DNA of 33,175 nucleotides from positions 1 to 33,175 of the forward strand of contig DAOWHH010000014.1 of the NCBI GenBank assembly GCA_030641525.1, read 5' to 3'. Below are positions 4,314-14,397 of the stretch, piece by piece. The stretch is from a bacterium. GTDB taxonomy: Bacteria; Patescibacteriota; Minisyncoccia; Phycocordibacterales; UBA12079. Under the pieces are notes generated by a model that did not search any database, had not been told where the DNA came from, and worked only from the letters and a program-made list of their open reading frames with translations. The stretch's first letter is position 1. Every line of letters begins with the position of its first letter. The position numbers were made by a program, and so were the translations under genes.

Positions 4314-4330
4314 GTGCCCGAAAATAATAG

Positions 4331-4760
4331 AGGGAGAATCGGGGTCAAGTTTCTAAGTAAAATTTTTCGCTATCGCTCAAATTTTACTAAGAACTTCCTC
4401 CCCGGACTCGGCGACAAGCACTCGCTTCGCTCGTCTTGTATACCGCCTCCGTCTTTCGATTCTCCCTATCCGTGCAAAAACATATCCTCCCAGAGCTTTC
4501 GCTCTGGGAGGATTGTTTTTGTGCGGATAGGGCTCTCGTCCTGACGGTCACTAAGTAAAATTGTTCATTCGCAAGCTCATTCCAATTTTACTAAGTGCCG
4601 CGGGACACAGCTCATAGTTGTTCGCTATCGCTCACAACATATTCCGCTGTTCGATTCTCCACGAAAAGCCCGCAGGGGCTTTTCTCTATCCGCACACAAT
4701 AGAAAAACACGCTCTGACAGAGCGTGTTTTTCTATTGTGTGCGGATAGGGAGAATCGAAC
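4331..4760. repeat. Composite palindromic array carrying inverted tRNA-Gly 3'-end copies
   Basis: Repeated gattctccctatccg / cggatagggagaatc arms, nested hairpins (cagagctttcgctctg, gaaaagcccgcaggggcttttc), two hairpins sharing ctaagtaaaatt arms, and a 63-nt perfect palindrome at 4686-4748 overlapping the tRNA acceptor end. Confidence 0.8.
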
Positions 4761-4810
4761 TCCCGTTTCATCCTTGGCAAGGACGTGTTCTACCACTAAA
4801 CTATACCCGC
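4740..4810 (-). tRNA. tRNA-Gly (GCC)
   Basis: Reverse strand gcgggtatagtttagtggtagaacacgtccttGCCaaggatgaaacgggagttcgattctccctatccgc-a. 7-bp acceptor, anticodon GCC, no encoded CCA. Confidence 0.95.
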
Positions 4811-6262: not shown

Positions 6263-6303
6263 ATATTATATGTTATCTTATTATAAAATTAATTGATTAC
6301 TAG

Positions 6304-6378
6304 TCGGGATGCCGGGATTCGAACCCGGAGTCGTCTGTCTAAGGCAGAAAAGTCAGTCCTAATACCACACTCTAATTA
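6304..6378 (-). pseudogene. Degenerate tRNA-Pro-like pseudogene
   Basis: T-arm and 3' acceptor strand identical to the neighbouring tRNA-Pro (ccgggttcgaatcccggcatcccga), but the 5' half (agagtgtggtattagg...) mispairs and the anticodon loop lacks U33. Confidence 0.65.
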
Positions 6379-6387
6379 ACTATATTG

Positions 6388-6460
6388 TCGGGATGCCGGG
6401 ATTCGAACCCGGAGTCGTCCGCTCCCAAAGCGGAAATGTTAGCCGTTACACCACACCCCG
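6388..6460 (-). tRNA. tRNA-Pro (TGG)
   Basis: Reverse strand cggggtgtggtgtaacggctaacatttccgcttTGGgagcggacgactccgggttcgaatcccggcatcccg-a. Full cloverleaf, no encoded CCA. Confidence 0.93.
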
Positions 6461-6616
6461 AAATTATTTATTTGTTTATGTACTTTTGTGGGTCGTCTGC
6501 CTTAGGCAGAAAAACATTAGCCGTTACACCACACCCCGAAATTATTTATTTGTTTATGTACTTTTGTGGGTCGTCTGCCTTAGGCAGAAAAACATTAGTC
6601 GTTACACCACACCCCG
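6461..6616 (-). repeat. Two tandem 78-bp repeats each containing a tRNA-Pro 5' half
   Basis: 6461-6538 and 6539-6616 differ by one base (attagccg vs attagtcg). Each holds cggggtgtggtgtaacggctaat-gtttttctgcctaaggcagacga plus AT-rich spacer. Confidence 0.95.
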
Positions 6617-6620
6617 ATAT

Positions 6621-6883: not shown

Positions 6884-6930
6884 GTCGTCTGCCTTAGGCA
6901 GAAAAACATTAGCCGTTACACCACACCCCG
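6884..6930 (-). pseudogene. Third tRNA-Pro 5'-half fragment
   Basis: cggggtgtggtgtaacggctaatgtttttctgcctaaggcagacgac on the reverse strand, same as the halves in the tandem repeat. Confidence 0.85.
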
Positions 6931-6931
6931 A

Positions 6932-8611: not shown

Positions 8612-8761
8612 AATATAATATTTTATTTATATTGATAAAATCGACCTTTCACTATTATGTTATAAGTATATACCCATAACTATATTCCTGTCAAGGAAAA
8701 CAAAAAAAATATAGCAATAAAAGATATTTATGCTAAAAACGAAATCTTGTGCAATATAGGC

Positions 8762-8860
8762 GGAGAATCAGTTCGATTCTCCCTACCCGCTACAAAAATA
8801 TAATGCAAAAATGCTATTGCATTTTTTTCATTATTTTTGTGCGGGTAGGGAGAATCGAAC
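8762..8860. repeat. Palindromic element with inverted copy of tRNA-Gly(TCC) 3' end
   Basis: gttcgattctccctacccgc (8771-8790) is the exact inverse of gcgggtagggagaatcgaac (8841-8860); the intervening sequence is itself hairpin-forming. Confidence 0.9.
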
Positions 8861-8910
8861 TCCCGTTTACTGCTTGGAAGGCAGTTGTTCTACCACTAAA
8901 CTATACCCGC
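8840..8910 (-). tRNA. tRNA-Gly (TCC)
   Basis: Reverse strand gcgggtatagtttagtggtagaacaactgcctTCCaagcagtaaacgggagttcgattctccctacccgc-a. No encoded CCA. Confidence 0.95.
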
Positions 8911-8994: not shown

Positions 8995-9066
8995 GTCCTC
9001 GTGGTGAAATGGATATCACAACGGTCTTCGGAACCGTTATTGTGGGTTCGAATCCTGCCGAGGACA
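8995..9066 (+). tRNA. tRNA-Arg (TCG)
   Basis: gtcctcgtggtgaaatggatatcacaacggtctTCGgaaccgttattgtgggttcgaatcctgccgaggac-a. 7-bp acceptor; no encoded CCA; TATAAT 9 nt upstream. Confidence 0.95.
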
Positions 9067-9127
9067 CAAATTTACATAGTGTTTCACCAGAAACATCTAA
9101 AACCTTAATAATGTTTTATATAAAACA

Positions 9128-13491: not shown

Positions 13492-14397
13492 CTATTTCTT
13501 ATTATTATGAAATTTTTTGTGAATCTCTTTTAAATGTTTATCTGTTATATGTGTATAAATTTGAGTTGTTGAAATATCGGAATGACCCAACATCATTTGA
13601 ACCGATCTTAAATCAGCTCCATTCTGAAGTAAGTCAGTAGCAAAACTATGTCTAATTATGTGCGGAGTCACCACTTTTGTTATACCAGCTTTAACAGCAT
13701 AATATTTCACGATTCTTTCTACAGACCTAGTTGTTAAACGATTATTATCAGTTCTATTTCTCCCAAAAGAGATAAATAGAGCCTCGTTCATATCCTTTCT
13801 TTTAGCTAAATAATCTTTAATTATACTTTTAGCTGAATCTGATAGAAAAACAACCCTTATTTTATCACCCTTACCGCGTACAGACATCTCATCTTTCTTT
13901 AAATCAATATCTGAATTCAAGGCACATAATTCAGAAACCCTTAAGCCAGTAGAAAAAAGTAATTCCAATAAGGATTTATCTCTTAATTCTTTAATATTTT
14001 CTCCTTTAGGAGCTTTTAATAACCTTTCTAATTCTTCTATTGAAATTAAATCCAAAGATCTTTCGGAAATTTTAGCTAATTCTATTTTTTCAGGTGCTAA
14101 AGATTCCACCCCTCTCTTAACTAAGTACTTCAAAAAACCTCTCAAAGCAATTAAATAATAATTTTGAGTGGTCTTCTTTAAAGACTCCTTCCTGGCTCCA
14201 AATTCACCTCTATTTAAATATAAACGGTATTTTCTAACAATATCATCACTAATGTCTTTAGGGTCATTTTTGCTTAAAAATTCTAAAAATCTATCCAAAT
14301 ACCTGTCATAATTCGCCACAGTTTTTACACTTCTTCCTCTTTCAATTTCCAAATATTCCAAATATTCAGTTTTTAATTGTTTAAGATTGGAATTCAT
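13492..14397 (-). CDS. xer: Tyrosine recombinase, XerC/XerD type
   Basis: N-terminal SAM-like domain; catalytic R (STGLRVSEL), HxxR (TPHIIRHSFATDLL), GHSDISTTQIYTH. Confidence 0.93.
   Translation of the reverse strand: MNSNLKQLKTEYLEYLEIERGRSVKTVANYDRYLDRFLEFLSKNDPKDISDDIVRKYRLYLNRGEFGARKESLKKTTQNYYLIALRGFLKYLVKRGVESLAPEKIELAKISERSLDLISIEELERLLKAPKGENIKELRDKSLLELLFSTGLRVSELCALNSDIDLKKDEMSVRGKGDKIRVVFLSDSAKSIIKDYLAKRKDMNEALFISFGRNRTDNNRLTTRSVERIVKYYAVKAGITKVVTPHIIRHSFATDLLQNGADLRSVQMMLGHSDISTTQIYTHITDKHLKEIHKKFHNNKK

Follow-up and report, generated by a model that had tools for sequence, protein, structure and literature searches.

Inverted copy of a tRNA 3' end downstream of tRNA-Gly(TCC) in a member of the Patescibacteriota: a probable remnant of a family of short non-coding elements associated with the T-loop of tRNA and tmRNA genes

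Downstream of a tRNA-Gly(TCC) gene in a bacterium of the Patescibacteriota (Phycocordibacterales, UBA12079) lies an exact inverted copy of the 3' end of the same gene, and the question addressed here is where this copy comes from and whether it concerns one tRNA gene or many. The stretch of DNA analysed, referred to as the window, comprises 33,175 nucleotides (assembly GCA_030641525.1, contig DAOWHH010000014.1), and its features at this locus are:

8839 to 8910, minus strand: tRNA-Gly(TCC), the host tRNA gene (ARAGORN; Rfam RF00005, 77.5 bits)
8791 to 8838, minus strand: AT-rich first hairpin, H1, which separates tRNA-Gly(TCC) from the inverted arm (fold prediction)
8770 to 8790, minus strand: inverted arm, the exact reverse complement of the tRNA-Gly(TCC) 3' end (tRNA positions 50-70)
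8760 to 8769, minus strand: GATTCTCCGC, which comparison with the full elements in the relatives G002 and G010 suggests to be left over from a direct tRNA-Gly(TCC) 3'-end copy

The preliminary description of this DNA reported a perfect 20-nt inverted copy, and this was recovered (gttcgattctccctacccgc at 8771-8790, exact reverse complement at 8841-8860). With blastn the exact match covers 21 nt (tRNA positions 50-70 against trailer positions +69 to +49), and a repeat search returned an inverted repeat of 28 nt at 89% (8770-8797 / 8834-8861). Since the probability of this exact 20-mer within 400 positions is about 3e-11 at the local base composition, the copy cannot be due to chance. As had also been stated, it carries the ctaccc of tRNA-Gly(TCC) and not the ctatcc of tRNA-Gly(GCC), and the outer arm ggagaatc/gattctcc is present (8762-8769); compared with relatives, the latter reads as what is left of a further copy of this end, in direct orientation.

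The minus strand between 8740 and 8910 is strongly structured (fold z = -10). The predicted fold with the long hairpin has an energy of -75.6 kcal/mol and leaves the tRNA misfolded, while tRNA-Gly(TCC) and the first hairpin alone, the latter standing between the gene and its inverted copy, give -40.7 kcal/mol and retain the acceptor and T arms. Should the region be transcribed, the prediction is that the long hairpin prevails over the tRNA-Gly(TCC) cloverleaf, and the inverted copy could compete with its T-arm and acceptor. A terminator scan gave no terminator-like site at the locus. The neighbouring gene, which we take to be lysS-like, has an 80% identical relative in Candidatus Paceibacterota, the group to which the organism is assigned.

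Comparison of the same locus in three genomes showed that the arm changes with the tRNA, in keeping with the covariation proposed earlier as a check. Specifically, arm and tRNA end are GCGGGTAGGGAG and CTCCCTACCCGC in the window's own genome, GCGGGTGGGGAG and CTCCCCACCCGC in G010, and GTAGAGAG and CTCTCTACCCGC in G002; in G003 a partial direct tRNA copy is found instead of the arm. In both G002 and G010 the orthologous tRNA-Gly(TCC) locus carries a full element, the orthologous arm included, with a full core at the position where the window has none, i.e. between CGAACT and GATTCTCC. Judged from these three genomes, it appears that a core once present in the window copy has been deleted.

The own genome (584 kb in 18 contigs, 87% complete) has 36 distinct tRNAs as predicted by ARAGORN, and by eye the trailers of approximately 12 of these contain either an element of this kind or its inverted arm. 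The order within a unit is tRNA, AT-rich hairpin, inverted 3'-end copy, structured core and direct 3'-end copy, and units are often in tandem. Inverted 3'-end copies follow tRNA-Gly(TCC), tRNA-Gln(CTG) and tRNA-Val(TAC) (+49 to +71), and tRNA-Gly(GCC), while direct 3'-end copies are present at about +168 to +219 downstream of tRNA-Asp, tRNA-Glu(CTC), tRNA-Glu(TTC), tRNA-Leu(TAA) and tRNA-Thr(CGT); a tRNA-Cys match in the same range was excluded, as it falls on the adjacent tRNA-Leu gene. In a strict ungapped test, inverted matches of at least 15 of 18 nt at +25 to +110 were scored for 3 of 34 own tRNAs and for 7 of 35 tRNA/tmRNA genes of the relative G007, with controls at 0 and 0.3%. Two complete elements are located within the window, both of which were used to build the family model described below (R1):

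4739 to 4810, minus strand: tRNA-Gly(GCC), host of two complete tandem elements
4521 to 4738, minus strand: complete element 1 after tRNA-Gly(GCC), with hairpin, hairpin-interrupted inverted arm, core and short direct copy (R1 match at 4538-4658, 67.8 bits)
4314 to 4520, minus strand: complete element 2, in tandem, with hairpin, inverted arm, core and degraded direct copy (R1 match at 4336-4463, 110.3 bits)

The conserved core and the direct tRNA-end copy of the family point to events in the DNA, namely insertion and target duplication, rather than to some device that serves a single pre-tRNA. Of the earlier claims, the tie of the copy to the local tRNA-Gly(TCC), which it follows, stands; what had been described was just one arm of a worn family member.

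An extra hairpin of similar sequence often splits the inverted arm between its acceptor and T-stem parts (L042, L055, L057, L062, L070, own tRNA-Gly(GCC) and own tRNA-Tyr). Tandem units of the tRNA-Thr(TGT) 3' half run into contig ends on both sides (end of contig C10 and start of contig C7 in G000; L003, L024). Moreover, the own tRNA genes have N73-C in 36 of 36 cases and A as the next base in 34 of 36, so that they end in N73-CA rather than in an encoded CCA. The tRNA-Pro gene (6387-6460) is flanked by partial copies of other types; the three 5' copies are 27 nt each, with units spaced 78 nt and two in tandem, and represent another kind of partial tRNA copy:

6303 to 6379, minus strand: partial 3' copy of tRNA-Pro that follows the gene directly, different type
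6492 to 6539, 6570 to 6617 and 6884 to 6931, minus strand: three partial 5' copies that precede tRNA-Pro

For the distribution of the family we used a covariance model, R1, of 134 positions and 26 pairs, built from ten aligned own units and with a structure that was partly set by hand. The own genome has 14 strong matches, ten of them by construction. At E-values up to 0.001, R1 matches were detected in 47 of 61 genomes including the own genome (46 of 60 relatives), 429 matches in sum, and the copy number ranges from 7 to 33 within one genus. Among 286 genomes drawn from the phylum, 13 had matches at E up to 1e-5, with most copies in the order to which the window belongs and a few in other classes; among 17 loci from this draw, ten matches lie 32-88 nt after a tRNA on the same strand, three at 154-215 nt and one at 1009 nt, and three are without an upstream tRNA.

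Position relative to tRNA genes was studied in 90 loci, i.e. those of the own genome together with listed matches picked by score and genome and not by tRNA. These hold 139 R1 matches (115 distinct), of which 110 distinct matches are within 1300 nt 3' of a tRNA or tmRNA gene on the same strand; 75 are at 15-89 nt and most others further down arrays. The host genes cover 17 isotypes and tmRNA (eight loci without an ARAGORN tRNA are tmRNA genes according to Rfam), and the sense orientation is fixed relative to the tRNA. The complete genome of G007 (752 kb) agrees with this: of its 21 elements, 15 begin at a distance of 40-103 nt from a tRNA/tmRNA gene that precedes them on the same strand, and three more, at 322, 341 and 544 nt, are later members of tandem arrays; of the remainder, one is at 987 nt and two are elsewhere. 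The five distinct matches without an upstream tRNA host are at L086, L111, L117, L142 and L145. The element at L086 carries a tRNA-Ser end, and between it and tRNA-Ser(GGA) lies a 13-kb island whose genes include a serine recombinase gene as well as LexA-like and terminase-like ones; L145 adjoins a tRNA 3' half 17.7 kb from tRNA-Gln(CTG), and at L111 the locus boundary appears to run through a preceding tRNA.

The sequence ccttac.gggcttg ... cac.gttc.ag recurs in the place of the tRNA upstream of the elements in L086, L093, L145 and L117, most clearly in the first three; in at least L086 and L093 it follows a protein gene, and it is possibly a signal for the end of cargo or of an island. At L168 (4510-6301) the order is tRNA-Ser(TGA), element, an NTP_transf_6 gene, a second element and a DUF5673-like gene, i.e. 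a cassette-like gene between elements. An exact-motif match on a viral contig (L081), without tRNA, was taken as chance, and a stricter pattern gave 0 matches. An Rfam scan of the window and 14 loci returned tRNA, tmRNA and weak chance matches only, and no description of the T-loop element family was found in the open-licence literature searched.

To what extent the arms follow the local tRNA was evaluated for 110 elements by comparing the last 18 nt of each tRNA with the arms, using 200 shuffles of isotypes; one row (L132), where the tRNA sequence could not be cut out at a contig edge, was kept at score zero. On average the direct arm matches its local tRNA at 13.6 of 18 positions (9.2 for other isotypes) and the inverted arm at 12.9 of 18 (9.3 for other isotypes), and the means were 9.7 or lower in all 200 shuffles. 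At lysS-linked loci of named, more distant relatives (43 loci), 1 of 109 tRNAs passed the strict ungapped test for an inverted arm, which indicates that close copying is mainly a feature of this family; by eye, about 10 of 21 listed lysS-linked tRNA-Gly(TCC) trailers have an arm, several of these being hairpin-interrupted and missed by the ungapped test. With respect to structure, 93.9% of the pair cells in the 115 distinct sequences are standard and 25 of the 26 R1 pairs have changed on both sides (643 cells), and the observed pairing was reached in 0 of 500 shuffles; the alignment had been fitted to the structure tested, and sliding the partners by 1-3 columns drops the pairing to 25-42%. 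The core also includes an internal loop that is conserved in sequence.

The cores themselves recur at different tRNA genes. For 22 of 110 cores the nearest core, as measured by normalised alignment scores and not by a tree, belongs to a different tRNA within the same genome, where shuffled labels give 6.0, and for 17 it follows a tRNA of the same type in a different genome (7.3 with shuffled labels); four have it in the same array, four in the same genome and type, and for 63 neither applies. The excess of the same type in other genomes implies that part of the pattern is vertical inheritance. Cores are common to tRNA-Arg(TCG) in G002 and tRNA-Tyr in G001, to tRNA-Ala in G022 and tRNA-Ser in G048, and to own tRNA-Tyr and own tRNA-Glu. 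In such pairs the direct copies, some of which are degraded, fit their own host tRNA, and so do most inverted ones; the inverted arm at own tRNA-Glu(TTC) is a poor fit to its tRNA. The hairpin H1 is sometimes common to core-sharing pairs, although the arm between H1 and the core is local.

Filled and empty orthologous sites were also found, one of them within the window:

8995 to 9067, plus strand: tRNA-Arg(TCG), an empty site in the own genome, with the orthologue filled in G003 and G002

In G003 the element at tRNA-Arg(TCG) measures 206 nt from the tRNA end to the end of the direct copy, after which the native downstream sequence resumes; the alignment of the G003 and own downstream sequences scored 45.5 against a maximum of 41.5 for 1000 shuffled ones. 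Likewise, the own tRNA-Trp(CCA) has a gene end directly downstream, and in G002 two elements precede the same gene.

A second family is the mirror image of the first. The model R2, built from five units upstream of tRNAs, has matches in 13 of 31 genomes, including all 11 of the family of the window, and 25 of the 30 R2 loci returned are 49-290 nt upstream of a tRNA on the same strand. These units are mostly preceded by a copy of the 5' end of that tRNA, which breaks off in or near the D-loop. Mirror (D-loop) elements were seen upstream of tRNA genes in G000 (contig C2, 73573-73760) and in L248-L277, and in G013 an inverted copy of the 5' part of the tRNA comes after the mirror elements of tRNA-Val and tRNA-Lys.

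Among the candidates searched (recombinase, reverse transcriptase and Y1) we did not identify a gene that mobilises the T-loop elements, and the units, of about 200 bp, have no integrase gene inside or adjacent to them. The own genome has one tyrosine recombinase gene (PF00589), at 13492-14397 of the window and approximately 4.6 kb from tRNA-Gly(TCC), which presumably is Xer-like. Reverse transcriptase, present in 27 of 61 genomes, was rejected as driver because of no association (it occurs in 19 of the 47 genomes that have elements and in 8 of the 14 that lack them); it is absent from the own genome, G002, G007 and G047, which have 14, 33, 21 and 18 matches, respectively. Y1 transposase was rejected because of a weak association without physical linkage: Y1 genes occur in 43 of 61 genomes (37 with both element and Y1, 10 with element only, 6 with Y1 only and 8 with neither), and of 20 Y1 loci one had an R1 match and two a tRNA, 18 being without tRNA or element. 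The RAYT-like Y1 gene near tRNA-Leu(TAG) at L171 has palindromes of its own (acttggaccttggaggtccaagt).

On balance we consider it probable that the inverted copy at tRNA-Gly(TCC) is what survives, as the left arm, of a T-loop element: a non-coding mini mobile element of approximately 200 bp. The insertion site of such an element would be the conserved T-loop sequence TTC|GA in tRNA and tmRNA genes, and insertion would leave an intact tRNA, followed by the hairpin, the inverted 3'-end copy, the structured core and a direct copy that runs from position 57 to the discriminator. The core would spread to unrelated tRNA genes, with both arms copied from, or converted to, the tRNA of the new site. 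As a guess, duplication of the target between the T-loop and the end of the gene would yield the direct copy, and fold-back copying at the trailer hairpin the inverted one. At tRNA-Gly(TCC) the core would have been deleted later. The comparisons above show the layout, the link to tRNAs, the local fit of both arms, one core at different tRNAs, filled and empty orthologous sites and covariation of paired bases; active movement, this order of events and the way in which the arms arise are what we infer. Against this reading stand the negative search for a mobilising gene among the candidates named above, the matches without an upstream tRNA (5 of 115) or elsewhere in G007 (2 of 21), the low count at the lysS-linked loci (1 of 109 tRNAs) and the share of vertical inheritance. 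Moreover, H1 sometimes travels with the core, which simple insertion does not predict, and simple target-site duplication accounts for the direct copy and not for the inverted one.

The structural covariation on a single strand, which is strong and includes the sequence-conserved internal loop, would also be expected for a functional RNA module that is co-transcribed with the tRNA, whose arms pair with each other (or the inverted arm with the tRNA) and from which processing releases a stable RNA. The fixed sense orientation fits such a module, as does Escherichia coli RtT, which shares the layout, has an arm-arm helix in its Rfam structure and is described in PMC4986893 and PMC2965389 as RNA released from tRNA operons. 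Folded single-stranded DNA would, however, equally give covariation, a hairpin stands between the tRNA and the element, members of one genus already differ in whether a particular tRNA has an element, and the copy number in one genus ranges from 7 to 33; we therefore regard it as rather unlikely. That nothing moves, and that the copies are mutational by-products of repeated fold-back (template-switch) copying at the trailer hairpin, would agree with inverted arms that begin right after the hairpin, with the few native trailer bases included in the G003 tRNA-Arg(TCG) arm and with the existence of core-less arms. This would leave the conserved core, the direct copy, the tandem arrays and the occurrence of one core at different tRNAs unaccounted for, and the shared core in particular makes it an improbable explanation. 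Direct copies of tRNA 3' ends are, on the other hand, the classic trace of ordinary tRNA-integrating prophages or islands, and the 13-kb serine-recombinase island between tRNA-Ser(GGA) and an element might be taken to indicate that the copies are attR/attL remnants. Gene-less tandem units of about 200 bp, a common core at 17 isotypes and the inverted arm argue against this, and the islands look like later insertions that displace an element, leaving such an origin with very little probability.

Returning to insertion of an element at the T-loop, it is possible, although we suggest this only tentatively, that the two mirror families, on the 3' side with the T-loop and on the 5' side with the D-loop, constitute a new type of mobile element that recognises both loops common to all tRNAs, inserts there, and rebuilds the ends as one direct and one inverted copy of its target. 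If so, any tRNA or tmRNA gene could be colonised without loss of function. The reading as T-loop elements would, if right, already provide a general route for small elements to occupy tRNA genes harmlessly; the making of target-derived inverted and direct copies would become testable, and many partial tRNA copies in these genomes would be explained.

Compared with known systems, integron cassette arrays (attC) likewise have tandem units, imperfect palindromes and a fixed anchor, and one gene-bearing unit between two elements was found here, but the anchor is any tRNA, the units are mostly gene-less and the genome has only one tyrosine recombinase. REP/BIME elements with their Y1 genes (RAYT) are likewise short, non-coding and palindromic; here, in contrast, the Y1 genes do not adjoin the elements, and one own Y1 gene has its own, different palindrome. 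To our knowledge REPs do not copy their target. Integrative elements whose attachment sites are tRNA 3' ends repeat that end directly on their far side and keep the tRNA intact (PMC9897764), as is the case here, whereas the present elements have no genes inside, are about 200 bp, have an inverted copy in addition and share one core among many isotypes.

The closest likeness in layout is the E. coli tyrT/tyrV repeat, RtT (rttR, RF00391), with 178-bp tandem units after tRNA-Tyr and about the same distances as here; RtT-like units were found in 4695 of 5426 E. coli genomes. The tyrT unit has a 19-nt exact direct 3'-end copy at +160-178 and an inverted copy (22 nt, 86%) at +60-81, which are paired in the Rfam structure, and in our elements, too, tandem units lie directly 3' of the tRNA and the direct 3'-end copy closes a helix with the upstream arm. 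R1 gave at most 6.8 bits on the E. coli tyrT locus, while RF00391 exceeded its cut-off (45 bits) in 0 of 61 genomes, with 19 bits as the best score, and gave no RtT in the window at E up to 1; with no sequence relation found in either direction, the elements are similar to RtT in layout and not members of it. RtT RNAs come from many tRNA operons, as stated in PMC4986893. Unlike RtT, which we examined at one E. coli locus, the present elements have many isotypes and tmRNA as hosts, arms that match their locus and a mirror 5' family. The E. coli tyrT repeat has long been regarded as an oddity; its layout, with no detectable sequence relation, is here spread over many tRNA types and tmRNA in bacteria with reduced genomes.
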